A program made the position numbers and the translations under genes. A model generated the notes under the pieces. The model had not been told where the DNA came from. It was given only the letters and a program-made list of their open reading frames with translations, and made no database searches. Of a stretch of 27,502 nucleotides of DNA, positions 3 to 25,222 are shown piece after piece; within the stretch, counting starts at the first letter, position 1, and every line of letters begins with the position of its first letter. Origin of the DNA: a virus; IMG/VR virus record IMGVR_UViG_3300031963_008174, positions 1 to 27,502 of that record; one strand, given 5' to 3'.

Positions 3-2402
3 GCAAATTTAATTTCAAATAATGTTTTAATTCGTGGTTATGATCCAGTTAATCATACGAATAACGCATATCAAGTAGCAAATAGTGGTTCTTCTTACGC
101 TAATGGTGCTTTTGCTGCTGCTAATACCGCAGATCAAAGAGCCGTTACATCAGGCACCTATGCCAATGCGGCCTTTGTTGTTGCTAATTCTGCATCTTCA
201 TACGCTAATGGAGCTTTTGGTGCAGCCAATGTTGCAGACCAGAAAGCTGTAACATCTGGTGATTATGCTAATTCAGCTTTCTTAGCTGCAAATACTGCCG
301 ATCAGAAAGCAGTTTCAGCAGGTTCATACGCCAACTCTGCATTTGGAGTGGCTAATTCTGCCAGTTCTTATGCGAATGGTGCCTTCACAGCTGCAAATAC
401 AGCCGATCAAAAAGCGGTTACATCTGGTTTATATGCTAATAGTGCTTACATTCATGCCAATGCGGCCTTTAATGCGGCTAATGCAGCTAGTTCTTATGCC
501 AACGGTGCTTTTGCGGCGGCCAATACGGCCGATCAAAGAGCAGTAACTTCTGGATCTTATGCGAATAGTGCATACCAAACTGCTAATAGTGGATCATCTT
601 ATGCTAACGGTGCCTTTGCTGCCGCTAACACCGCAGACCAAAGAGCTGTAACTTCTGGAATATATGCTAACTCAGCTTTTGCAGCTGCTAACTCAAATTA
701 CACAAGTGCTGTAACAAGATTAACCGTCACAAATAGTGGTGCTTCGGCATTTTTAATTGATCAATATACAGGAAATAATCCAACAATTTACGTATCAGCT
801 GGAGAAACAATTGCTTTCCAGTTAAGTGGTATTACTGGTCATCCATTTATGATTCGTGTATCATCAGGCGGATCAAATTACGATACTGGATTAACTCATG
901 TATCTACAACAGGAACAGTTTCAACAGATTCAAGTGCTCAAGCTAAAGAATCTGGCACTTTATATTGGAAAGTTCCTTTTGACTTAGTTGGATTAACTTA
1001 TGTTTATCAATGTCAAGCTCATTCAGGAATGGTTGGAAGTATTGTTATTCAACAACCAGCTTCTTTTGTCGCATCAAATACTCAATTAGCATTTACAGCA
1101 GCCAATACCGCAGATCAAAGAGCAGTAACATCTGGTTCATATGCTAATTCTTCTTATATTCATGCTAATGCTGCTTTCAATGCCGCTAATAGTGCAACCG
1201 ATACATGGGTACGTAATGCGGCTAACGCTGCTTCAAGTTATGCCAACTCAGCATATGCTCAAGCGAATACCGGAACAACACTAGCACAAGCCGCCTTTGA
1301 TCAAGCAAATACAGGTGGTGGTGCAGGTACAGATTCTTATGCTAGAAATACAGCAAATGCGGCATCTTCTTATGCTAATTCTGCATATCTTCATGCTAAT
1401 GCTGCGTTCAATGCTGCAAATACTGGTGGTGCCGCAACGGATAGTTTTGCTAGAACGCAAGCTAATGCTGCTTTCAATCAAGCAAATTCAGCCGCATCTG
1501 GTGGACAAACAATTTACGTTGCTGCTATAGACACATTTACAAGTAACGGTCAAAATACAACATTTACTTTAAGTACTACACCAACATCTGCAAACCAAAT
1601 TATGGTGTATATTGATGGTGTTTACCAACAATCATCTGGATATACATTAAGTGGTGCAACACTTACAATGTCTGAAGCTGTTGATGCAAATTCATCACTA
1701 CAAGTTAGAACATTTGCTAACACAGCAACTTCACAACTTGGTGTTACAATTGATACATTTACTGGTACTGGTGCATGTACTACATTTACATTATCTACTG
1801 TACCTACAAGTAAAAATCTTACATCAGTAATTGTTGGTGGTGTACCACAACTTAAATCCGCTTATAGTATTACTGGTACTTCTTTAGTATTTACTGGCGC
1901 TCCTGCAAACAACTCTGTTATTGAAGTGGCCACATACAAAGGTGGTGGTTCATACGCAACATCGTTTACAGCTGTTGTTGATAAATTTACAGGTAATGGT
2001 GCTCAAACAACATTTGGTCTATCAACAATACCTAATTCTGAAAATGAAACCTTTGTTTATTTAAATGGTGTTTATCAAAATAAAGATACATATTCTGTAT
2101 CAGGTGCAAATGTCGTATTAACTGGTACTGCAACATCAAATGATACGATTGAAGTCGTAACAGTTGCTGGTTCAGAGATGAATGTAACATCTTCTCGTTA
2201 CAATAGTAGAGTTTATACTGGTACAGGTGCATGTACTCAATTTACAATTTCTTCAAGTCATAGTGCAAATTCTGTTCTTGTATTTGAAAATGGTATTTGC
2301 CAAGAACCAATTACAGATTATACAGTTTCAGGTACAACATTAACATTTACAACTGCACCAGGAAATGGTTTTAAAATTCAAATTAGAGAGCTACCAGTTT
2401 AA
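3..2402 (+). CDS. Long tail fibre / adhesin with heptad repeats and cupredoxin-like domain (5' partial)
   Basis: The frame is open from the first bases of the window, so the true start lies upstream; 799 residues are visible. Residues 1-230 or so are unbroken seven-residue repeats of the type YANGAFA-AANTADQ-RAVTSGS. Residues about 235-353 form a cupredoxin-like beta domain with His280, Cys337, His340 and Met343. A second heptad block follows to about residue 500. Four beta-rich repeats of about 75 residues complete the C-terminus, with recurring elements such as FTGTGACTTFTLS and DGVYQ or similar. Repetitive Ala/Asn heptads are typical of trimeric phage fibres; the C-terminal repeats resemble those seen in other phage fibre and baseplate proteins. 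The role as a virion fibre or receptor-binding protein is inferred from this architecture and from the structural genes downstream. Confidence is high for a structural fibre-like protein and low for any specific T4 counterpart. Confidence 0.8.
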   Translation, partial: ANLISNNVLIRGYDPVNHTNNAYQVANSGSSYANGAFAAANTADQRAVTSGTYANAAFVVANSASSYANGAFGAANVADQKAVTSGDYANSAFLAANTADQKAVSAGSYANSAFGVANSASSYANGAFTAANTADQKAVTSGLYANSAYIHANAAFNAANAASSYANGAFAAANTADQRAVTSGSYANSAYQTANSGSSYANGAFAAANTADQRAVTSGIYANSAFAAANSNYTSAVTRLTVTNSGASAFLIDQYTGNNPTIYVSAGETIAFQLSGITGHPFMIRVSSGGSNYDTGLTHVSTTGTVSTDSSAQAKESGTLYWKVPFDLVGLTYVYQCQAHSGMVGSIVIQQPASFVASNTQLAFTAANTADQRAVTSGSYANSSYIHANAAFNAANSATDTWVRNAANAASSYANSAYAQANTGTTLAQAAFDQANTGGGAGTDSYARNTANAASSYANSAYLHANAAFNAANTGGAATDSFARTQANAAFNQANSAASGGQTIYVAAIDTFTSNGQNTTFTLSTTPTSANQIMVYIDGVYQQSSGYTLSGATLTMSEAVDANSSLQVRTFANTATSQLGVTIDTFTGTGACTTFTLSTVPTSKNLTSVIVGGVPQLKSAYSITGTSLVFTGAPANNSVIEVATYKGGGSYATSFTAVVDKFTGNGAQTTFGLSTIPNSENETFVYLNGVYQNKDTYSVSGANVVLTGTATSNDTIEVVTVAGSEMNVTSSRYNSRVYTGTGACTQFTISSSHSANSVLVFENGICQEPITDYTVSGTTLTFTTAPGNGFKIQIRELPV
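60..716 (+). repeat. Tandem 21-bp-period heptad-coding repeats, block 1
   Basis: About 30 consecutive heptads can be read without a phase break, each close to x-A-N/V-x-A/S-x-x. Longer super-units recur, such as YANGAFA, AANTADQ, RAVTSGx, YANSAFx. Near-identical DNA copies, for example accgcagatcaaagag, recur through the block. Heptad periodicity suggests a trimeric coiled-coil or similar shaft. Confidence 0.85.
705..1062 (+). other. Cupredoxin-like domain within the fibre gene
   Basis: This stretch interrupts the heptads in phase. It contains TGHPFMIR, with the His codon at 840-842, then a Gly/Ser/Thr-rich beta region, then YQCQAHSGMVG, with Cys at 1011-1013, His at 1020-1022 and Met at 1029-1031. 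Plastocyanin-type blue-copper sites use one upstream His followed by a Cys, a His and a Met near the C-terminal end, and all four are present here in that order. Spacing is C-x2-H-x2-M, shorter than the C-x2-H-x4-M of plastocyanin. Copper binding is inferred, not shown. Confidence 0.65.
1086..1500 (+). repeat. Heptad-coding repeats, block 2
   Basis: After the cupredoxin-like domain the heptads resume (AANTADQ, RAVTSGS, YANSSYI, HANAAFN). The phase slips around TWVRNAANAASS, where there are 12 rather than 14 residues. Gly-rich breaks such as TGGGAGTD also interrupt the block. It links the cupredoxin-like domain to the C-terminal beta repeats. Confidence 0.75.
1518..2399 (+). repeat. Four tandem beta-domain repeats of about 75 residues
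   Basis: Repeats begin near 1518, 1743, 1971 and 2193. Each has an FTxxGxxTTFxLS-like strand, a Pro/Ser-Asn turn, a VYxxGVYQ-like strand, a YxxSGxxLxx strand and a final xVxT strand. Copies 2 and 4 share nearly identical DNA around ggtgcatgtact (1770 and 2226 regions), which suggests recent internal duplication. They probably form beta-sandwich or stacked beta modules at the fibre tip; function is not known. Confidence 0.7.
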
Positions 2403-2411
2403 GAGATAACT

Positions 2412-4139
2412 ATGGCATTTACACAAATATCAACTACAAATATTAAAGAAAATACGGTAGTTTCTTATGCCGAATATGCAGCATTTACGGCGAATGTTTT
2501 GCCCAAAATTTCGTCTGTTCAGTACGCAGACGAAACTTTTACTGCACTTGATGATACTGCTGCCAATACTTCTGGTACTGCAAGATTGGTTATCAATGGA
2601 AGTGGATTTCAAACTGGTGCAACTGTTATTGTAGGAACAACATCAGCTTCAAGTACTGCAAGAGTAAGCACGGAACAATTAAGAGCAAACGTAACTGCAT
2701 TAAGTTCTGGTAGTTATACTTTGTATGTACAAAATCCAGATGGCGGCACAGCTATTCGTGTAAATGGAGCTACATTTTCAAATACTCCTGTTTGGAGTAC
2801 TGCAGCTGCATTAAGCAATCAAGAGGCTAATACTGCCTTTGCTGTAAGTATTAGTGCAAACTCTGATTCTAATGTAACTTATTCTAATACTACATCATTA
2901 CCTGCTGGTACCACATTATTGGCTAACGGACTATTTTATGGTACTGTTACAGTTGGAGTAGAAACAGCCTTTACTTTTGGTGTTAAAGCTACTGACGTTG
3001 AATTACAAGATGAAACAAGAACATTTAGTTTGACGGTGACAGTTGGACCCCCAGCAGGACAATTGTTTGCTTTTGGCCAAAATAATCGTGGCCAATTAGG
3101 ATTTAATGATACAACGTATAGATCTAGTCCAACTCAAGTTGGTTCTTCTACAAATTGGATTTCATTAAATTTAATAGGACCAACAGGTTATTCAGGTTTT
3201 GGTATTAAGTCTGACAATACTTTGTGGTCATGGGGACAAAATGGACACGGTCAATTAGGACTTGATGATACAACATATAGATCTAGTCCAGTTCAAGTTG
3301 GATCTGCTACAAACTGGAATTTAATTTCTTCATCTACTAATTACCATGTTTTATTGACAAAAACGAATGGAACATTGTGGGGTATGGGTAGGAATACATT
3401 TGGCAATTTAGGATTAGGAAATAGTACATATAAATCTAGTCCAACTCAAGTAGGAACTGATACTAATTGGAATAATATATCTCAAGGAACATTTCGTTCA
3501 GCAGCGACCAAAACAGATGGTACTTTATGGTTGTGGGGACGTAATAATTATGGAACTTTAGGTTTAAATGATACGACAGACAGAAATAGTCCAACTCAAG
3601 TAGGAACAGGAACTAATTGGAGCAAAGTTGCAGTAACCGGAGCAGATGCACTTGCAACTAAAACTGATGGCACATTATGGGCCATTGGTGGATCTAATGA
3701 TGGAGGAAGATTAGGACTTAGTGAAATACCTTATTCTTCACCTGGAGCAATATTTAGATCAAGTCCAGTTCAAATAGGAGCTAATACTAATTGGAATTTA
3801 CTAGTACCAGCAGGAGAATCTTTTGCAGCTACAAAAACGGATGGAACATTGTGGTCTTGGGGACCAAATATTAACGGCCAATTAGGACATAATAATTCTT
3901 CATATAAATCCAGTCCAGTACAAGTAGGAACAAATACTAATTGGAGTAAAATAGATGGTGGTTCTACTAGTTTTGGTGGAATTAAAACAGATGGTACTTT
4001 GTGGTTATGGGGAAATAATGGTCAAGGACAGTTAGGACTTAATGATAGAGTTAATAAATCAAGTCCTACTCAAGTAGGATCAGGAACTACTTGGGTTTTA
4101 GTTGCGACTGCTCGTAGTACTCTTGCAATAAGACAATAA
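2412..4139 (+). CDS. RCC1-type beta-propeller adhesin-like protein, copy 1
   Basis: 575 residues. Residues 1-60 are a divergent N-terminus shared with the paralogue at 9209. Residues about 60-117 resemble an IPT/TIG domain (INGSGFQTGATVIVG, then SYTLYVQNPDGGT). Residues about 118-211 resemble a putative-Ig domain (LPAGTTLLANGLFYGTVT). From about residue 213 to the end there are seven RCC1-like blades of about 50 residues, each starting TDGTLWxWG and containing GQLGLND and RSSPxQVG. RCC1 propellers are protein- or ligand-binding scaffolds. Here the protein starts nine bases after the fibre gene, so a secreted or virion-attached host-binding role is likely but inferred. There is no signal peptide, as expected for a virion protein. 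The ATG start has only a weak purine-rich leader (aagaga). Confidence 0.8.
   Translation: MAFTQISTTNIKENTVVSYAEYAAFTANVLPKISSVQYADETFTALDDTAANTSGTARLVINGSGFQTGATVIVGTTSASSTARVSTEQLRANVTALSSGSYTLYVQNPDGGTAIRVNGATFSNTPVWSTAAALSNQEANTAFAVSISANSDSNVTYSNTTSLPAGTTLLANGLFYGTVTVGVETAFTFGVKATDVELQDETRTFSLTVTVGPPAGQLFAFGQNNRGQLGFNDTTYRSSPTQVGSSTNWISLNLIGPTGYSGFGIKSDNTLWSWGQNGHGQLGLDDTTYRSSPVQVGSATNWNLISSSTNYHVLLTKTNGTLWGMGRNTFGNLGLGNSTYKSSPTQVGTDTNWNNISQGTFRSAATKTDGTLWLWGRNNYGTLGLNDTTDRNSPTQVGTGTNWSKVAVTGADALATKTDGTLWAIGGSNDGGRLGLSEIPYSSPGAIFRSSPVQIGANTNWNLLVPAGESFAATKTDGTLWSWGPNINGQLGHNNSSYKSSPVQVGTNTNWSKIDGGSTSFGGIKTDGTLWLWGNNGQGQLGLNDRVNKSSPTQVGSGTTWVLVATARSTLAIRQ
3060..4130 (+). repeat. Seven RCC1 blade repeats (about 150-bp period)
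   Basis: A near-constant DNA word, agatctagtccaactcaagt or a close variant, recurs at about 3120, 3281, 3431, 3583, 3757, 3906 and 4057, once per blade. It encodes (R/K)SSP(T/V)QV. Seven blades match the canonical RCC1 propeller count. Blade 5 carries a short insertion (SEIPYSSPGAIF). Confidence 0.85.
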
Positions 4140-4148
4140 GTATGCCTC

Positions 4149-4156
4149 ACTAAATA
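4149..4156 (+). promoter_or_regulatory. Weak candidate late promoter (ACTAAATA)
   Basis: Six of eight positions match the T4 late box TATAAATA. It lies in the 58-base gap before the sulfotransferase gene, 41 bases upstream of its ATG. The same C-TAAATA variant occurs in two other intergenic or junction sites in this window, which raises its credibility slightly. Confidence 0.35.
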
Positions 4157-4197
4157 CTTGTAGTACAATATAATAATGTTTTTGATGGAATTTTAAA

Positions 4198-5967
4198 ATG
4201 AAAAATATATACTTTCTTGCCGGATTGCCACGGTCTGGTTCTACTTTACTTGCGGCAATTCTCAACCAAAATCCAAAGATTCACGCATCTTCTACCTCAG
4301 GTCTTTTAGACACAATGGTAGGCACACTTCGTGCATGGGCAGATAGCTTCAACACTCTTGCTCAAAAAGACCGTGATGCTTCTGAACAAGAAATTCAGCG
4401 TATACTGAATAACATTACGCAAACCAAATATGCACACATAGACAAACCAATTATTCTTGATAAGGCTCGTGGTTGGGCAGATGATACTAACATTCGCACA
4501 ATGACCCGAGTGTTTGAGCGTAAGCCTAAAATTATTGCTACGGTTAGGAATGTCGAAGATTGTGCTGCATCATTTGTTCGTATTGCCAAACCAACCGATT
4601 TAGATGATTTCTGTGTCAATGGTGAATTAATGGGACACCTTAAAGAATCATATCAAACATTTCAAAAAGGATATTCATTTGCACCTGAATGTTTTTTAAT
4701 TGTTGACTATGATGATTTACTATCAAACCCCAAAAAAGAAATTGAAAAAATACATCAGTTTCTAGAAATTGAAAATGATTTTGAATATGATTTTGATCAT
4801 ATAGATGGTTCAAATTTACAAGAACGTGATGAAGAAATTTGGATGGTACCTGGTTTACATGATGTAAAGCCAAAACTAGGGTACCAACACAAAAAAGATT
4901 CACAAGAAATACTTAAACATCGTTTCTATGATTTTGTTCAACCAAGATTCTGGTTAGGTGAAGAAAAGGCTAATAAACCAGCCCACAAACTAGACACGCA
5001 ATTAGCAGCCGGACTCATGGGTGATTTCCAGTTAGGTCTTAAAATTGCAAATGAATTAGAAGCAGAAGAACCATGGAATAATCGTGCTGCGTTTAATCGT
5101 GGTTGGTACAGAATGTATGAAGGTAAATTGTTAGAGGGTGAACAATTACTTTTCCGTGGACGATTAGAGAAAGTATTTGGTAATGAACCGCCAAGGTCAC
5201 CAATGCCAATGTGGGATGGCGAATCAAAAGGAACAATACTCTTAAATCTTGAAGGCGGTCTTGGCGACCAGATTCATGGTGTAAGATATGCAAGAGAATT
5301 TGCAAAAAAAGGATGTGAAACTATTGTTGCATGTTCTGGCCCGCTGGCCACTATGTTTAGGAATGTTGAAGGTGTCGTTGCTGTATGCCAGCATGAAGCA
5401 ACATTTGGTATTGTTCATGACTTTTGGGTACCATCTATGTCAACAATACCTATTCTCAAGTATGAATATAAAGACATTTCTGGAAAGCCATATATAAGTA
5501 AACCAGAAGTGGCACCACATAAAGGTCTGAGAATTGGCCTAAGATGGCAAGGAAATCCACAGTTTGAGCATGAACAACATAGGATTTTCCCACCTAAATT
5601 ATTATTTGATGCAGTAGAAGATATTGATGCTGAATTTATTTCTCTCCAGCGTGATGAAGGTTCACAGTATTGTCCTTATTGGGTCAAGAAAGTTCCTTTG
5701 GGTCATTGGGAAGAAACAAGAATGGCAATTGCATCATGTGATTTGGTGATTACTTCTTGTACATCTATTGCTCACTTGTCTGGTGCGATGGGTGTACCAA
5801 CTTGGATTATTCCACCAGTTTTACCTTATTACTTGTGGGCTTATCCAATTAACAAAACAGTATGGTATAATAGTGTGAGATTGTTTAGACAAAAAATGTA
5901 TGGTTCTTGGAATGAACCATTTAAACAAATTAAACTAGCATTACAAAAAGGAGAAATAAATGCCTAA
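4198..5967 (+). CDS. Sulfotransferase fused to a GT9/GT41-like glycosyltransferase
   Basis: 589 residues. The N-terminal domain (about 1-250) is a PAPS-dependent sulfotransferase: the 5'-phosphosulfate loop PRSGST is at 11-16 after a beta strand (IYFLAGL), and a 3'-phosphate-binding-like VRNVEDCAASF is at 116-126. A short helical linker, possibly TPR-like, spans about 265-325. The C-terminal domain (about 345-589) reads as a heptosyltransferase-like or TPR-associated GT: LEGGLGDQIHGVRYA (351-365), RIGLRWQGNP (445-454), SCDLVITSCTSIAHLSGAMG (513-532) and a final WYNSVRLFRQ. The likely role is to transfer a sugar and a sulfate to a glycan or protein. It is the first gene of the block between the two RCC1 genes and overlaps the next gene by 8 bases. 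The target is unknown. Confidence 0.8.
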   Translation: MKNIYFLAGLPRSGSTLLAAILNQNPKIHASSTSGLLDTMVGTLRAWADSFNTLAQKDRDASEQEIQRILNNITQTKYAHIDKPIILDKARGWADDTNIRTMTRVFERKPKIIATVRNVEDCAASFVRIAKPTDLDDFCVNGELMGHLKESYQTFQKGYSFAPECFLIVDYDDLLSNPKKEIEKIHQFLEIENDFEYDFDHIDGSNLQERDEEIWMVPGLHDVKPKLGYQHKKDSQEILKHRFYDFVQPRFWLGEEKANKPAHKLDTQLAAGLMGDFQLGLKIANELEAEEPWNNRAAFNRGWYRMYEGKLLEGEQLLFRGRLEKVFGNEPPRSPMPMWDGESKGTILLNLEGGLGDQIHGVRYAREFAKKGCETIVACSGPLATMFRNVEGVVAVCQHEATFGIVHDFWVPSMSTIPILKYEYKDISGKPYISKPEVAPHKGLRIGLRWQGNPQFEHEQHRIFPPKLLFDAVEDIDAEFISLQRDEGSQYCPYWVKKVPLGHWEETRMAIASCDLVITSCTSIAHLSGAMGVPTWIIPPVLPYYLWAYPINKTVWYNSVRLFRQKMYGSWNEPFKQIKLALQKGEINA

Positions 5968-6382
5968 GATTAATACTGGATATTGGGTTCGTGTTGTAGA
6001 CGGCCGAGTATATGATGTTTGGGATTCCGCACCTGATGAAAGACCAGGTTGGAGAGAAGCTATTGAGGTTGTGCCTGATGTTATTGGTCGTGACCGTGAA
6101 GTAATTGAAGGACATATTTTTGATTTGGAAAAAACGCCTGTTGAGATTGTATATCAGAAGCGTCCTGTTTCTTTTGAAGAACGCCAAGGTTCTTACATTT
6201 CTCATGCAGAATTCAAAGCAAAGATGGTTGAGCGTGACCAAGAAATGCGTCAGAACTTAAACAATCCAGAAATGCCATTTGATCAGTCTGCCATTGATGC
6301 TGCAAATGCTGAGCGTGATGCTCGTGTTGCCGCACTCAGAGCATGTAATAATCACGATGATTTGGATGCACTAGACGCTTAA
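5960..6382 (+). CDS. Hypothetical protein, possible tail-fibre assembly/chaperone-like
   Basis: 140 residues, acidic, soluble, with no membrane segment. A strong Shine-Dalgarno (aaaaggag, about 5948-5955) supports the ATG, which overlaps the end of the sulfotransferase gene. The N-terminal half is beta-rich (TGYWVRVVDGRVYDVWDS), followed by a segment IFDLEKTPVEIVYQKRPVSF and a charged helical C-terminus ending in an Asp-rich tail. The layout of a small beta domain with a helical tail, next to fibre genes, resembles small fibre-assembly proteins of other phages, but I do not recognise a family with confidence. Function is unassigned. Confidence 0.7.
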   Translation: MPKINTGYWVRVVDGRVYDVWDSAPDERPGWREAIEVVPDVIGRDREVIEGHIFDLEKTPVEIVYQKRPVSFEERQGSYISHAEFKAKMVERDQEMRQNLNNPEMPFDQSAIDAANAERDARVAALRACNNHDDLDALDA

Positions 6383-6397
6383 CTTTAAAGGTTTGTT

Positions 6398-7117
6398 ATG
6401 GATTCGTTATTTTTTAAATATGATTTGGCAGTAGAAAAGGCTTATATTATTCGGGTCAAAGAGAATGAAAGATCCGAAAGTATGGCCAAAAGGTGTTCTG
6501 ATTCTTGTAACTCTGTAGGCATGCCATGGGAATATTGGGATGCCTACAATGGTTATAATCGCCGCATTAAAGAGCCTGATAATTCCAAAAACAACCCTCT
6601 GATGAAGATGATGAAGGTAACAGATCATTATCTCACCAGAGGTGAAGTTGCTTGTGCGTTATCACATATCTCTCTTTGGTCACATTGTGCTGAGATTGAT
6701 AAACCAATTGTAATTTTAGAACATGATGCTATAATGATACAATCATATCCTTTGCATCAAGTTTATAATTCAATTTGTTATCTTGGTGGTAATGAACAGG
6801 TGAACCTTGGTTGGAAACAATTACCAACACCTCCACATGCTTCAGAAGGACCAAACTATCATTTTATTTGCCGTGCTCATGCATATGCAATTGATCCTTG
6901 TGTAGCAAAAAATCTTCTTTCACATGCACTTAAATTTGGTATCTGTGCGCCGCTTGACATTATGATCCGTGCAGATATATTTCCTATTCACCAGATGGGA
7001 GTGTTTGCGTATGATATGAAAGAAACTGAAGAAGATAATAAAACTCTTAAAACAACCATACTTGGCCGGCCATTAGAAGGCCGTTCAACAGTTCGAAACG
7101 ATGATCTAAGTATCTGA
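6398..7117 (+). CDS. Glycosyltransferase family 25-like protein
   Basis: 239 residues. The N-terminal strand KAYIIRVKENERSESM and the conserved LTRGEVACALSHISLW (79-94), followed by KPIVILEHDA (102-111), are the hallmark motifs of GT25 enzymes, the family that contains LPS galactosyltransferases and collagen hydroxylysine galactosyltransferases. The acidic EHD triad takes the place of the usual E-D-D/DxD metal-binding group. Length is typical for bacterial and phage GT25 proteins. The start is supported by taaagg 7-12 bases upstream. Its stop overlaps the next ATG by one base, so translation is probably coupled. The acceptor is unknown: LPS, capsule or a hydroxylated virion protein. Confidence 0.8.
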   Translation: MDSLFFKYDLAVEKAYIIRVKENERSESMAKRCSDSCNSVGMPWEYWDAYNGYNRRIKEPDNSKNNPLMKMMKVTDHYLTRGEVACALSHISLWSHCAEIDKPIVILEHDAIMIQSYPLHQVYNSICYLGGNEQVNLGWKQLPTPPHASEGPNYHFICRAHAYAIDPCVAKNLLSHALKFGICAPLDIMIRADIFPIHQMGVFAYDMKETEEDNKTLKTTILGRPLEGRSTVRNDDLSI

Positions 7118-7734
7118 TGTACCCATTAAACATAGATGAACGAATGTATATTGTCGATGGATTTTATACAAATCCTGATGGTATTCGTCAATATGCTATC
7201 AATGAACAAAAAGAACCTGAAAGCGGTGGAAACTATGCAGGTGTAATGACCGAAAGCAGATTCATTACAGATGAGCATTTAGAAATACTTGGTCGTTTGG
7301 TTGGCCATTTTGTAGAACCAAGTACAGGTTTATCTGGTAAATTTAGATTCACAAAAGAAGGTGACACATACAGTCAAGATATACATTTTGATGCAGGTGA
7401 TAATTTATGGGCAGGTGTTTGTTATCTCACGCCAAATATTGAAACTGATGGTACTATTTTTTGGCGGCATAATCGAACTGGTCTTGAATCTATACCGCAT
7501 ACGCAAGAAGGTATAGAAAAACATGGTTGGTATAATGTTGATGACCTTAAAAAATTCCTTGAAACTGACGGTATAAATCATTCTTTATGGACAAAAACAT
7601 TGACAATTCCTTTCAGATATAATAGACTAGTATTGTTTAGGCCTTGGATGTTTCATTCACCAGGCAAAGCATTTGGTGATACTTTACAGAATTGCCGACT
7701 TATACAAACATTTTTTCTTAAAGGAAAGTTGTGA
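7117..7734 (+). CDS. 2-oxoglutarate/Fe(II) oxygenase-like protein
   Basis: 205 residues. It opens with IVDGFYTNPDGIRQYA, typical of small phage and bacterial 2OG-Fe(II) dioxygenase-like proteins (the DUF6445 type). Candidate metal ligands are His90 and Asp92 in IHFDAG and His180 in FRPWMFHSPG; Arg194 in RLIQTFFL would bind 2-oxoglutarate. Strands WAGVCYLT and GTIFWRH lie between them as expected for a double-stranded beta-helix core. It overlaps the GT25 gene by one base and the methyltransferase gene by four. It probably hydroxylates a protein side chain or a small molecule; the substrate is unknown. Confidence 0.7.
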   Translation: MYPLNIDERMYIVDGFYTNPDGIRQYAINEQKEPESGGNYAGVMTESRFITDEHLEILGRLVGHFVEPSTGLSGKFRFTKEGDTYSQDIHFDAGDNLWAGVCYLTPNIETDGTIFWRHNRTGLESIPHTQEGIEKHGWYNVDDLKKFLETDGINHSLWTKTLTIPFRYNRLVLFRPWMFHSPGKAFGDTLQNCRLIQTFFLKGKL

Positions 7735-8312
7735 AATTTACAGTTCGTTTTCATGATCATATAATTACAAGTATTGAAAGTATATGCCGACAAGTAGGAT
7801 ATCCAAAAACTGTAATTGAAATTGGAGTATTTCAAGGTGAAACAACCTTTAATATGGTCAATCAAATATCTAAAAAAATTAATGATTATAAGCATTATGC
7901 TATCGATACATTTGATACAAGTACCGATTTACCAGAAGAAAACATTGAATCGACAAAAGAAATTTTCTTAAACAATCTAAAAGAATCACCACCAGGATTG
8001 GTTGAGTTTATGAATATGAAATCTTTTGATGCTTTAATTGAATTGAGAAACCGTGGTGTCAAAGCTGATTTAATCTATGTAGATGGTGATCATAGAGCAC
8101 CAGAAGTATTACAAGATGCGGTTCTTGGTTTTGAGTTACTCAGTATAGGTGGTGTTATGTTGTTTGATGATTCTGTAACTTGGAGATATAAAGGTGATAT
8201 TACAAACTCCCCTAAAATTGCAGTAGATAATTTTATACAATGTTATTGGGATCGTTTAGAAGTGATAGAAGTGTCTAATGGTTACCAATTAGCAATAAGG
8301 AGAAAAAAGTGA
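7731..8312 (+). CDS. Class I SAM-dependent methyltransferase
   Basis: 193 residues with a GTG start inside a GTGA overlap with the preceding stop. The SAM-binding motif I is EIGVFQGETT (30-39). An acidic strand end, YAIDTFD, is at 56-62. Motif ADLIYVDGDHRAPEV (112-126) and GGVMLFDD (140-147) match the Methyltransf_24/TylF-like group, which often O-methylates sugars or small molecules and uses the DGDH region for metal binding. Its place between an oxygenase and a sulfate-activation gene suggests it methylates the same modified group, but the acceptor is not visible from sequence. Confidence 0.8.
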   Translation: MKFTVRFHDHIITSIESICRQVGYPKTVIEIGVFQGETTFNMVNQISKKINDYKHYAIDTFDTSTDLPEENIESTKEIFLNNLKESPPGLVEFMNMKSFDALIELRNRGVKADLIYVDGDHRAPEVLQDAVLGFELLSIGGVMLFDDSVTWRYKGDITNSPKIAVDNFIQCYWDRLEVIEVSNGYQLAIRRKK

Positions 8313-9139
8313 AAAAGATTTTAATTATGGGTTTACCTGGTTCAGGTAAAACTATGTTGGCATCAGCATTACAAAAATATTTACAAGATCATAGTATATT
8401 GTTTCATGTAAATTCAGAATCAATTGATGCAAGTAAAGCAGTAGTTAAATGGATTAATGCTGATGATGTACGTAAAAAATATAATGATTGGGACTTCTCT
8501 CATGAAGGTCGTATCCGTCAATCTATTCGTATGCGTGAATTAGCTGATAGTTTTCTAAATGATTTTGTGATTGCAGATTTTGTTGCACCATTACCAGAAA
8601 TGCGTAATAATTTTAAGGCTGACTGGACAATTTGGGTTGACACGATTGATAAAGGTCGTTTTGAAGATACAAATAAAATGTTTGTGCCGCCTGAAGTATA
8701 TGACTTCCGTGTGACAGAACAAAACTGTGAAAAATGGGCTGAGTTTATTGGCAACCATATTTTAGAAAATCGCCGTAGACCGGTATTTGATTGGAAAAAA
8801 GAAACTGTTGAAATGTTAGGTCGTTGGCAACCATGGCATCCTGGCCATCGTGCATTATTTGAGCGTGCGATTGCAAAAACTGGTCAGGTTTGCATTATGA
8901 TTCGTGACTGCCAAGGTTGGAATGGTTCAAATCCTTTTGCTGCGAATCAAGTAAAAGAATTAATTAAACGTGACCTTGATCCACTTTTTCAGGGTCAATA
9001 TGAGATTCTTTTGGTACCAAATATCGTCAATATAACTTATGGTCGTGATGTAGGATATAAAATTGAACAAGAGGTTTTTGATGATCAAATACATGCCATC
9101 TCTGCTACGAAAATTCGTGAGCAAATGGGTCTAAAATAG
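8309..9139 (+). CDS. APS kinase-like P-loop domain fused to HxGH nucleotidyltransferase
   Basis: 276 residues with a GTG start, preceded by ataaggaga and overlapping the methyltransferase stop. Residues 1-150: Walker A GLPGSGKT (8-15), then INADDVRKKY (49-58), FSHEGRIRQSIRM and FVAPLPEMR, the layout of adenylylsulfate kinase (CysC). Residues about 160-276: GRWQPWHPGH with His177 and His180, then NPF at 208-210, YGRDVGY (244-250) and ISATKIRE (264-271). This is the HIGH-superfamily nucleotidyltransferase fold shared by ATP sulfurylase, NMN adenylyltransferase and cytidylyltransferases. The pairing with an APS kinase, and the GRD and ISxTxxR elements, make an ATP-sulfurylase-like role tempting, giving PAPS for the sulfotransferase at 4198; an NMNAT-like or cytidylyltransferase role is the alternative. 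Confidence 0.75.
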   Translation: MKKILIMGLPGSGKTMLASALQKYLQDHSILFHVNSESIDASKAVVKWINADDVRKKYNDWDFSHEGRIRQSIRMRELADSFLNDFVIADFVAPLPEMRNNFKADWTIWVDTIDKGRFEDTNKMFVPPEVYDFRVTEQNCEKWAEFIGNHILENRRRPVFDWKKETVEMLGRWQPWHPGHRALFERAIAKTGQVCIMIRDCQGWNGSNPFAANQVKELIKRDLDPLFQGQYEILLVPNIVNITYGRDVGYKIEQEVFDDQIHAISATKIREQMGLK

Positions 9140-9147
9140 TAACCTGA

Positions 9148-9204
9148 AATCGACCAGAGGGAATAAATTATAAATAGACTATAAAACACCCCTCAGGATC
9201 GATT
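9148..9204 (+). promoter_or_regulatory. Hairpin enclosing a late promoter and sequestering a ribosome binding site
   Basis: Left arm 9148-9161 (AATCGACCAGAGGG) pairs with right arm 9190-9204 (CCCTCAGGATCGATT). There are 13 base pairs, one A-A mismatch (9156/9195) and one bulged A (9198). The 28-base loop holds the perfect late box TATAAATA. The right arm holds the Shine-Dalgarno AGGA (9195-9198) for the ATG at 9209. Read-through RNA can fold and hide the ribosome binding site; RNA started at the late promoter lacks the left arm and cannot. Confidence 0.65.
9169..9176 (+). promoter_or_regulatory. T4-type late promoter (TATAAATA)
   Basis: An exact match to the T4 late promoter box, in an intergenic gap 33 bases upstream of the second RCC1 gene. 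Transcription would begin about 9182-9184. Confidence 0.8.
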
Positions 9205-9208
9205 CAAA

Positions 9209-10921
9209 ATGACAACAAAAATTTCTGGCGCACAGATTCAAAATTATACAGTTGAAACAGAACAACTATCTAATACCGCAGTAGCTGCCTTTGCAAAATC
9301 TCTAGCACCAAAAATTACCACAGTTAATGTTGCAAATAGTTCTTATACTGTACTAGACGATACAGCTGTAAATGTAGGTGGTGGTTACATTGTCATTACT
9401 GGTGCTGAATTTCAATCGGGAGCATCCGTATTAATTGATGCTACTCCTGCAACTTCTGTAACATACATAAACTCAACAACACTTAGAGCAGAAGTTCCTT
9501 CAAAGTCTGCTGCATCATATAATCTCTACGTGGTCAATCCAGATGGAGGCACAGGTATTCGTGTTGCTGGGATTACTTATTCAGCAACACCAACTTGGGT
9601 TACTGCAAGTCCATTATCAAATCAACCTGCTAATGTATCATTTAATGTATCTTTAAGTGCTACATCAGCAACATCTTATTCTAATACCACAGCATTACCA
9701 GCAGACACTCAATTATTAAGTAACGGTTATTTTTATGGTACAGTTACAATTGGTGCCGAAACTACTTATACATTTACTGTAAGAGCAACTGATGCTGAAT
9801 TGCAAGATGCGGATAAGACATTTCAGGTTACGGTGACGGTTGGGCCGCCACCTGGATCTTTGTATATTTTAGCATGGCTATCTGAATTTGGAGGTTCTGG
9901 CTTAAATGATACAGTAAGTAGATCCAGTCCAGTTCAACTTGGATCTAGTACAAATTGGTCAATTCTTGCTACAAGAAACTATAGTGTAGCAGCAATTAAA
10001 ACTGGTGGCACGCTATGGACATGGGGTTACAATGGCCAGGGCCAGTTAGGACTTAATGCTATAGTAAATATATCCAGTCCAGTTCAAGTAGGAGCCAGTA
10101 CTAATTGGAGTTCAGTTAGTGAGGCAGCTCAAACTTATTGTTCAATTAAAACCGATGGCACTTTATGGGTCTGGGGGACTGCTGATAGCGGTAAGTTAGG
10201 ACTCAACTCAATTACAGTACATAGATCCAGTCCAACTCAAGTAGGATCTGCTACCAATTGGAGTAAAGTAGTAGGTGATTATAATACAAGATTTTTAGCA
10301 CTTAAAACGGATGGTACATTGTGGGGATGGGGAAATAATACCTGGGGCGAGCTAGGACTTGGAGATAGAATCAATAGATCCAGTCCGACTCAAGTAGCTG
10401 GTATTACTTGGAATAATATTTGGGCCGGCCGCAATCATGTAATGGCTTCAAAAACAGATAATACTATATGGGGTTGGGGATATGTTGCGGCAGGCTCATT
10501 AGGAAATAATTCTATTGTCAACAGATCCAGTCCAGTTCAAGTTTTGTCTACAATTGATTGGAGTAAATTAGTTTTAGGTGATTATTTTACGGTTGGTTTA
10601 AAAAGTAATGGCACTCTTTGGTCTTGGGGTAGTGATACTTATGGAAATTTAGGATTAAATAGTCGAAATGTTTATAGATCTAGTCCAACTCAAATTGGAA
10701 GTAACACGACATGGAGAAATGTTTTTCTGGAACCAGGATCATCGAGTCCAATAGCCATTAAAACTGATGGCACTTTATGGGTATGGGGTGGTAATATGGG
10801 CACTCTTTTAAATTTACCATTGGCAACTCATAGATCCAGCCCCGTTCAAATAGGAACACAAACATATTGGGCAAATACTAATATCTTCGGAACTAATTAT
10901 GCATATTTAGCCAAATTTTAA
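9209..10921 (+). CDS. RCC1-type beta-propeller adhesin-like protein, copy 2
   Basis: 570 residues, a paralogue of the protein at 2412 over its whole length. The N-terminus shares TVLDDTAVNVGGG-like sequence, the IPT-like segment ITGAEFQSGASVLI, VVNPDGGTGIRV, and the Ig-like LPADTQLLSNGYFYGTVT. Seven propeller blades follow from about residue 215, with TDGTLWVWG, GQLGLN and RSSPxQV elements. Blade 1 (LYILAWLSEFGGSGLND) and blade 7 (LWVWGGNMGTLLNLPL) have drifted from the consensus. The start is supported by AGGA at 9195-9198, which sits in a hairpin arm. It is the last gene before the neck operon and probably encodes an alternative or partner virion adhesin. Molecular ligand unknown. Confidence 0.8.
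   Translation: MTTKISGAQIQNYTVETEQLSNTAVAAFAKSLAPKITTVNVANSSYTVLDDTAVNVGGGYIVITGAEFQSGASVLIDATPATSVTYINSTTLRAEVPSKSAASYNLYVVNPDGGTGIRVAGITYSATPTWVTASPLSNQPANVSFNVSLSATSATSYSNTTALPADTQLLSNGYFYGTVTIGAETTYTFTVRATDAELQDADKTFQVTVTVGPPPGSLYILAWLSEFGGSGLNDTVSRSSPVQLGSSTNWSILATRNYSVAAIKTGGTLWTWGYNGQGQLGLNAIVNISSPVQVGASTNWSSVSEAAQTYCSIKTDGTLWVWGTADSGKLGLNSITVHRSSPTQVGSATNWSKVVGDYNTRFLALKTDGTLWGWGNNTWGELGLGDRINRSSPTQVAGITWNNIWAGRNHVMASKTDNTIWGWGYVAAGSLGNNSIVNRSSPVQVLSTIDWSKLVLGDYFTVGLKSNGTLWSWGSDTYGNLGLNSRNVYRSSPTQIGSNTTWRNVFLEPGSSSPIAIKTDGTLWVWGGNMGTLLNLPLATHRSSPVQIGTQTYWANTNIFGTNYAYLAKF
9860..10910 (+). repeat. Seven RCC1 blade repeats, second gene
   Basis: The word agatccagtccagttcaagt or a close variant recurs at about 9920, 10073, 10223, 10376, 10522, 10676 and 10832, once per blade of about 150 bases. 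It is nearly identical to the corresponding words in the gene at 2412. Confidence 0.85.
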
Positions 10922-10952
10922 GTAATTATAACAAGTATAATACAGGACTATT

Positions 10953-11903
10953 ATGGCCGCTCCAGCTACCAGACAACAATTCAAAGATTACTGCCTACGT
11001 AGGTTAGGGTTTCCAGTAATTCAAATTAACGTTGATGATGATCAAGTAGAAGATCGTATTGACGATGCACTTCAGTTTTTTCATGACTATCATTTTGAAG
11101 GTTGTGAAAAAATTTACATGAAGCATAAATTTATACAAGAAGATATTGATAGACAATGGATATATTGTCCTGATCCAGTTCTTTTTGTAATTGGTGTTAT
11201 GCCATTCGATGATTCTAATTCATCGGTAAATATGTTTGACTTGCGTTATCAATTGCGCCTGCATGACCTCTATGACTTTACATCAGTATCTTATGTGTCA
11301 TATGAAATTACTATGCAACACATTCGTACATTAAATCTGTTGTTCTCAGGTACTCCACAGTTTCGTTTCAATCGTCACCAAAACAAACTCCATCTTGACA
11401 TTGATTGGGAAAGAGATGCGACAGTTGGTGAATATGTTGTCATCGAATGTTATCGTAAAATGAATCCAGATACCGTGTCAATTACAGGTTCAGTATCGGC
11501 CACAAATGCAGCCAATACACTTACAGGTACAAATACTAAATTTGACCAGGAATTATTAGAAGGTGATATTGTAACGGTCAATGGTACTGATCTACAAATC
11601 AAAAGAATTTTATCACCAACAGAAATACAATTAACAAAAACACCAACAGAAGGCATTTCTGGTACAGCAACGATTGCTGGACTTTCAGATGTTTGGGACA
11701 ATCGTTTTATGAAAAGATATACCACCGCTCTTATCAAAAAACAATGGGGTGAGAACATGAAAAAGTTTGGTGGTATACAAATGCCAGGTGGTGTAACATT
11801 AAATGGTAAAGAAATTTATGATGAAGCAGTTGAAGAAATTACAAAGATAGAAGAAGAAATGATTGCAAACAATGTTCTGCCATCAGACTTCATAATGGGA
11901 TAA
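10953..11903 (+). CDS. 13: Neck protein gp13
   Basis: 316 residues against about 309 in T4. It contributes to the neck that closes the filled head and joins it to the tail. Conserved features include RQQFKDYCLRRLGFPVIQIN at the N-terminus, DRIDDALQFFHDYHFEG (35-51) and, near the end, KKQWGENMKKFGG and GGVTLNGKEIYDEA, all characteristic of T4-like gp13. Residues about 175-243 look like an inserted beta-rich domain between the conserved CYRKMNPDT and SDVWDNRFMKRYTTALI. AGGA at 10944-10947 supports the ATG. It starts the neck/packaging operon and is followed after 3 bases by gp14. Confidence 0.9.
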   Translation: MAAPATRQQFKDYCLRRLGFPVIQINVDDDQVEDRIDDALQFFHDYHFEGCEKIYMKHKFIQEDIDRQWIYCPDPVLFVIGVMPFDDSNSSVNMFDLRYQLRLHDLYDFTSVSYVSYEITMQHIRTLNLLFSGTPQFRFNRHQNKLHLDIDWERDATVGEYVVIECYRKMNPDTVSITGSVSATNAANTLTGTNTKFDQELLEGDIVTVNGTDLQIKRILSPTEIQLTKTPTEGISGTATIAGLSDVWDNRFMKRYTTALIKKQWGENMKKFGGIQMPGGVTLNGKEIYDEAVEEITKIEEEMIANNVLPSDFIMG

Positions 11904-22727: not shown

Positions 22728-22732
22728 TTTTT

Positions 22733-25148: not shown

Positions 25149-25191
25149 TCTTAATAAGTCCTATAATAAGAATTATAAAAAGGGACTACTT

Positions 25192-25222
25192 AAAAGAGGC
25201 ATCGAAAGGTGCCTCTTTTTTT
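25192..25222 (+). terminator. Rho-independent terminator after gp23
   Basis: Stem AAAAGAGGCA (25192-25201) with TGCCTCTTTT (25210-25219), extended by T-G and C-G pairs to a GAAA tetraloop (25204-25207), followed by T's to 25222. A second weaker hairpin (25157-25187, AGTCC with GGACT around an AT stem) lies just upstream. Confidence 0.9.

Follow-up and report, generated by a model that had tools for sequence, protein, structure and literature searches.

The DNA analysed here, a window of 27,502 nt spanning positions 1 to 27,502 of the viral record IMGVR_UViG_3300031963_008174, raises the question of why a putative late promoter of the T4 type should lie inside a hairpin that also holds the Shine-Dalgarno (SD) sequence of the next gene. 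The gap concerned (9140-9208) separates a kinase/nucleotidyltransferase-like gene (8309-9139, + strand) from a gene of 570 aa (9209-10921, +) with a TIG/Ig-like N-terminal part, kept in relatives, followed by RCC1 repeats. Judged from TIG, a sub-threshold Ig-like match and the RCC1 repeats, the product is a probable receptor-binding structural protein or adhesin. Its gene occupies the slot immediately 5′ of gp13, which encodes the neck protein (head-tail adaptor Ad2; 10953-11903, +) and in many relatives lies directly 3′ of such promoters. Downstream follow genes for a gp14-like head closure protein (11907), tail sheath stabilizer (12857), terminase (14636), tail sheath (16330), tail tube (18043), portal (18636), protease (22077), scaffold (22762) and major head protein (23814). 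The 15 best matches of the terminase among named phages, at 53.7-56.0% identity, are Synechococcus phages, Pelagibacter phages and one marine single-cell virus, which points to an uncultured T4-like phage. No named phage was matched when 8300-10921 was searched directly as DNA, and among named phages the adhesin N-terminal part matched only four distant Pelagibacter phage records.

The bases named in the original prediction are all correct on the sequence: the box TATAAATA (9169-9176, +), AGGA as SD (9195-9198, +) and, ten bases after it, the ATG at 9209, a few tens of bases downstream of the box. TATAAATA would be a T4-type late promoter core by comparison with the T4/cyanophage consensus, whose cyanophage form is given as NATAAATA in the relevant part of PMC2984593. 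The minimum-energy fold of the leader (9140-9230) takes up bases 9145-9206 at −17.5 kcal/mol (z −3.56), and none of 200 whole-leader shuffles is as stable. Its predicted left arm (9145-9161, +) is present only in RNA arriving from upstream and missing from RNA starting near 9182; the right arm is predicted at 9190-9206 (+). In the outer helix 9145-9148 and 9150-9155 pair with 9196-9197 and 9199-9206, with A9149 and A9198 bulged, and in the middle helix 9157-9161 pair with 9190-9194, with A9156/A9195 mismatched. The arms first proposed (9148-9161 and 9190-9204) are real in that they form the core of this slightly longer structure. The box was thought to sit in the loop; it is enclosed by the hairpin yet not wholly looped, since an inner AT helix (9168-9172/9180-9184) takes in part of it. 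The SD is likewise in the right arm as claimed, but only its two G (two of four bases) are paired in the predicted fold, together with the eight bases after AGGA, and the AUG is unpaired.

Late transcription is expected to start at 9180-9183 (+), which presupposes an offset that we take to be that of T4 late RNA (box start +12 to 13) and is consistent with a 5′-end scan of 26 masked leaders described below. Folded as read-through RNA with 5′ ends at 8900, 9000, 9080, 9120 or 9140, the leader requires 13.0-14.9 kcal/mol for opening a 30S-size footprint, against 1.7 kcal/mol for late RNA from the assumed start (5′ ends 9180-9183), a contrast in line with the original prediction. The cost at the 9209 start is the second highest among 26 window starts tested; the highest belongs to a GTG ORF at 25209, probably a miscall on a terminator-like hairpin. 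In an own-half test, the downstream half of a leader was combined in turn with each of 100 upstream halves taken from other promoters, and the SD-to-AUG opening cost was compared. None of the 100 masks the window leader as well as its own half, and neither do any of 70 donors of the gp13 and adhesin classes (p 0.014). When the 45 bases 5′ of the box are dinucleotide-shuffled, 30 of 1000 versions reach the window's SD-to-AUG cost.

A narrower measure, opening only the four SD bases, gives p 0.109 for the window; it proved too restrictive, with 3 of 37 promoters reaching p ≤ 0.05 against shuffles, and was replaced by SD-to-AUG opening with swapped natural upstream halves, and then by within-class swaps. 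T4 e served as positive control (15.4 kcal/mol on read-through RNA, 3.8 on late RNA, p 0.02). T4 soc, a textbook case of such masking, is not significant in the same test (p 0.119), which means that genuine cases can escape the measure and that no individual case can be decided by it. Taken alone, the window leader is suggestive of a masking switch and does not prove one.

The reading that we favour, with moderate confidence, is that the leader of the 570-aa gene contains a protein-free RNA switch, masked on read-through RNA and open on late RNA, whose likely purpose is insulation. Polymerase coming from the upstream genes would copy both arms and the hairpin would form, pairing part of the SD and its flank, so that ribosomes would start poorly. 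Transcription from TATAAATA would begin at about 9182, past the left arm, and leave the leader open for translation. The gene, first of an adhesin-neck operon, would thereby be tied to its own late promoter and not to read-through from a long upstream block of tail, baseplate and other genes. In this scheme we infer promoter activity, start site, repression in cells and purpose; its core, a ribosome site hidden in read-through RNA and exposed in local late RNA, was already part of the original prediction and is supported by the folds, by the fit between leader halves and by an enrichment at gp13 promoters described below.

What the hairpin is for depends on the RNA that enters it. The original prediction took this RNA to be early and the hairpin to delay the adhesin, that is, early or middle RNA would enter the gene and its translation would be held until late infection, as with T4 gene e. 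The anatomy is indeed that of T4 e, soc, 49 and I-TevI, and for e and I-TevI the longer RNA is early or middle according to the relevant parts of PMC3014915 and PMC2988022. The upstream genes argue otherwise. A sister contig (G001, 62.7 kb), in which the window starts at 48085, carries four ORFs on the opposite strand and then, from 2676 to 47290, ORFs that share the strand of the window throughout. Ten of 26 upstream ORFs of at least 90 aa were scanned, and nine of the ten proteins have tail or baseplate matches (three of them weak), the tenth being a radical SAM protein. NATAAATA stands close before four upstream genes (2641, 11880, 17171 and 45000 of the sister contig). The pattern TATAAATANNNTATAAA occurs once per record in G001-G003 and is absent from G004-G005. 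No early promoter was identified in 2000-11100, where sigma-70-like sites number 26, fewer than the 38.3 of shuffles. The modification-enzyme genes just upstream could nonetheless be early, since across 348-9139 the 150 bases 5′ of the other gene starts contain no box differing from TATAAATA by at most one mismatch, and non-late genes are possible farther upstream, given that just 10 of the 26 are identified. The incoming RNA is thus probably late at least in part, as judged from sequence, and an early origin is not supported. Because the same-strand upstream genes include many for tail and baseplate, some with late-type boxes, insulation is at least as likely as timing, and we regard a gene e-type timer as unlikely.

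A second possibility is that an inverted repeat happens to surround an ordinary late promoter and has no effect. The promoter core is itself nearly palindromic (TTATA...TATAA), and 3% of the shuffles of the 45 bases reach the window's value; the stability of the whole leader and the own-half test speak against chance. Exact copies of TATAAATA are no commoner in the window than chance predicts (2 found, 3.15 expected), and the second one, at 22732, 5′ of the scaffold gene, is without such a hairpin. Ten boxes with at most one mismatch, including that at 9169, lie within 150 bases of a gene start. The claim that no other late box in the window is so structured holds for the only other exact copy; the one-mismatch TATAAAAA at 25174 (within 25149-25208, after the major head gene) also sits in a hairpin, AGTCC...GGGACT. 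A strong terminator-like hairpin directly follows that of TATAAAAA, and the GTG ORF at 25209 begins inside this second hairpin.

Relatives of the adhesin gene speak on both sides of the chance explanation. Related proteins were found at 45 loci by the gene finder, and a pattern of box plus start gave 16 stretches; a DNA pattern that fixed the distance from AGGA to ATG was too strict, returning five stretches, none of the adhesin family. Among the loci examined, an exact box precedes an MTTKI start in seven distinct leaders. The stop of the kinase gene lies 59-244 bases before the adhesin start in all 13 loci listed, which makes the gap orthologous. The window leader is identical in L001-L003, hence fine-scale covariation is unavailable for the window itself. 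L025, L112 and L374 have arms almost unrelated to those of the window and still form a long hairpin pairing across the SD, which L112 and L374 keep with a right arm differing from that of L025 (own-half test for L025, p 0.01-0.02). In L022/L028 a stem of 7 bp surrounds the box and leaves the SD outside, and L020 and L021 pair less, with the SD not in the promoter hairpin. The narrow measure gives p 0.57, 0.76 and 0.69 for L020, L021 and L022, and the wide one 0.36 for L022. Masking of the start site by the fold is thus found in four of the seven adhesin leaders and is absent from L020, L021 and L022/L028. The expectation that relatives retaining gene and promoter would also retain the structure came true by half: long hairpins persist with new arms in L025, L112 and L374, whereas L020, L021 and L022/L028 keep gene and promoter without start-site masking.

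Several features of these loci deserve mention in their own right. By eye, the left arm of L022/L028 resembles the 3′ end of coding sequence inserted there. L028 (5001-7592) matches only residues 1-213 of the 570-aa protein; L028:5001-7592 and L022:757-2481 share the same type of adhesin N-terminal part and leader and have different C-terminal parts (RCC1-like repeats in L022), which suggests that the distal domain is exchanged under one leader. In L374, L378 and L026, adhesin frames of 76, 177 and 66 aa follow an intact promoter hairpin and are possibly disrupted genes or assembly errors. The gap between the window's adhesin gene and gp13 (10922-10952) contains TTATAACAAGTATAA, resembling a decayed promoter core, and L025 retains an exact box before gp13 (6815).

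The slot before gp13 allowed the masking logic to be examined as a class. The listed matches of a gp13 pattern and the loci examined gave at least 164 distinct leaders, or 128 after similarity reduction: 68 gp13 leaders from uncultured T4-like contigs, 3 adhesin leaders and 57 other late promoters, the last including the gp13-like L116 (p 0.07). Boxes were included if a start codon with SD and an ORF of at least 80 aa lay 24-70 bases downstream, other boxes being skipped and left uncounted. Among the matches listed, the leader's own upstream half masks best at p ≤ 0.05 in 24 of 68 gp13, 2 of 3 adhesin and 4 of 57 other leaders (gp13 against other late promoters, Fisher p 1.7e-4, odds ratio 7.2); 44 of the 68 gp13 promoters are not significant, and the 24 that are masked are not all independent, as L301, L304, L305 and L328 share arms and so do L280 and L350. 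Within-class donors give 20/68, 2/3 and 3/57. Leaving the five bases that separate the box from the assumed start on the downstream half changes the counts to 11/68, 2/3 and 4/57, so that the class result leans on the assumed start, the gp13 contrast shrinking to 11/68 against 4/57. The number of base pairs between the two leader halves does not separate the classes.

By eye, the gp13 leader hairpins include a perfect one of 13 bp (L271), two of 12 bp (L114, L289) and a split longer helix (L367). In the 26 masked leaders (24 gp13, 2 adhesin), opening cost halves upstream of the box in 12 cases and between box and assumed start in 14, and its mean reaches a floor when the RNA 5′ end is at box +11 to +12, presumably where T4 late RNA begins. 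The masking logic is supported by this comparison and seems to recur, with changing sequences, before gp13 of many uncultured T4 relatives. Together with the arms that differ in L025, L112 and L374, an excess at gp13 promoters that is not seen at other late promoters makes a chance repeat distinctly improbable, even with three of seven adhesin leaders unmasked.

Some masked gp13 leaders have features of terminators. A U-run stands between SD and start in 8 of 24 masked gp13 leaders, against 1 of 44 unmasked ones and 5 of 57 other late promoters; this simpler count replaced an automatic one of stems with T-tails (3/71 against 2/57), in which few were found because stems absorbed the Ts. At L116:6099, L118:6627, L121:5832, L173:4970 and L081:1753 a separate terminator-like hairpin, recognised by eye, lies directly 5′ of the late box, and read-through may be blocked twice there.

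Some cultured cyanophages carry the terminator form. In twelve of them, hand-chosen among 60 listed of 861 matching records, NATAAATA lies within 110 bases before gp13 in four and no box was found there in eight; the three that could be scored in the own-half test gave p 0.01 (S-RIM44), 0.129 (S-RSM4) and 0.545 (S-B43). We then folded 15 gaps jointly, namely 12 BLAST relatives of S-RIM44 and S-RSM4 together with S-RIM44, S-RSM4 and S-MbCM7. An intrinsic-terminator hairpin with the late-box core TAAATA at its tip is formed in 13 of the 15 (L387:340-406, L401-L406 with S-PM2 in L406, L393, L394 and L409-L412), twelve of the 15 having been chosen as BLAST relatives; the gaps of S-SM2 and DSL-LC03 show no terminator hairpin in this fold. 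TAAATA is wholly unpaired in seven of the 13 and partly paired in six, and the box has the full form GATAAATA (the NATAAATA type) in five and CTAAATA in eight. In the alignment TAAATA is invariant in all 13 and the stem varies, with 96.4% of its cells paired and 18 cells changed on both sides, values each reached by none of 500 shuffles. The covariation score of the stem is 0.300, against 0.007-0.151 for slid versions and reached by 0 of 500 shuffles, though the structure was read from the same related sequences, which favours it. Pairs with two-sided change (4) and further pair types (10) show no excess over shuffles (264/500 and 443/500).

The cyanophage leaders (S-PM2, S-RIM44 and others) resemble that of the window in enclosing the late-box core in a hairpin in the slot before gp13, and differ in that their hairpin is an intrinsic terminator with a U-run. 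That the window's hairpin is itself mainly a 3′ end, terminator or processing element of the upstream kinase RNA is very improbable, for in spite of the U-runs of masked gp13 leaders and of the cyanophage hairpins (13 of 15 gaps, twelve picked as BLAST relatives of two showing it), its right arm is followed by ATCGATTCAAAATG, which is not T-rich and has no U-run, as an intrinsic terminator (G+C-rich stem plus U-run) would need, and a terminator scan of 2000-11100 lists none there, although that scan covers loops of 3-8 only and is blind to this hairpin.

Insulation of the window's gene can be widened, tentatively and at a little under even chances, to the slot before gp13 in many T4-like phages and some cyanophages. 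The slot would be an insulator in which a late promoter is nested in a hairpin and incoming RNA is silenced by start-site masking, by termination or by both, while polymerase starting inside escapes; the arms would turn over rapidly with the core box kept, and the window's adhesin gene would have been placed under this element. If so, a post-transcriptional trick known from a few T4 genes would be a regular part of one operon boundary across many T4 relatives, readable from sequence alone as a late box enclosed by arms that change and still pair. A single element would combine the roles of promoter and ribosome mask, with that of terminator added in some cyanophages. Late genes protected from read-through could then be predicted, and true late starts in uncultured phages would be easier to place.

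Recurrence before gp13 and the terminator form in some cultured cyanophages are the less expected part. Late promoters and terminators have been predicted across cyanophage genomes, as given in the relevant part of PMC3037559, whose supplements may list some of these sites; a PMC literature search found no account of hairpins of this type at gp13 or in cyanophages. Gene e is noted in PMC3014915 as not apparent in cyanophages such as syn9 and S-PM2.

Established examples of ribosome binding sites masked by hairpins are T4 e, soc, 49 and I-TevI, and late promoters relieve the masking in e and I-TevI, according to the parts of PMC3014915 and PMC2988022 concerned with them. The closest likeness is to T4 e, in which TATAAATA also lies 5′ of the start codon, the late start comes after the 5′ strand of the helix, and the 3′ strand holds the SD. 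The left arm of e, however, lies mostly in and just after the box, whereas that of the window is upstream of it. T4 e further has an early long RNA and a measured effect (100-fold, as cited in part of PMC3014915), while the window has a probable adhesin before a neck operon, possibly late incoming RNA and predicted folds. The leaders of soc, 49, I-TevI and other homing endonucleases are like that of the window in having SD or AUG in a helix, and in I-TevI the sequestered site is free in RNA from an adjacent late promoter, as described in parts of PMC3014915 and PMC2988022; all these leaders differ in gene and position. The seg43 leader of Aeromonas phage 25, in the account given in part of PMC2988022, has a hairpin directly 5′ of the ribosome binding site and excluding it, like L022/L028 and unlike the window, whose right arm contains the SD. 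The window's element would thus work like the switch of T4 e and soc and, as modelled here, belong to a kind already known.
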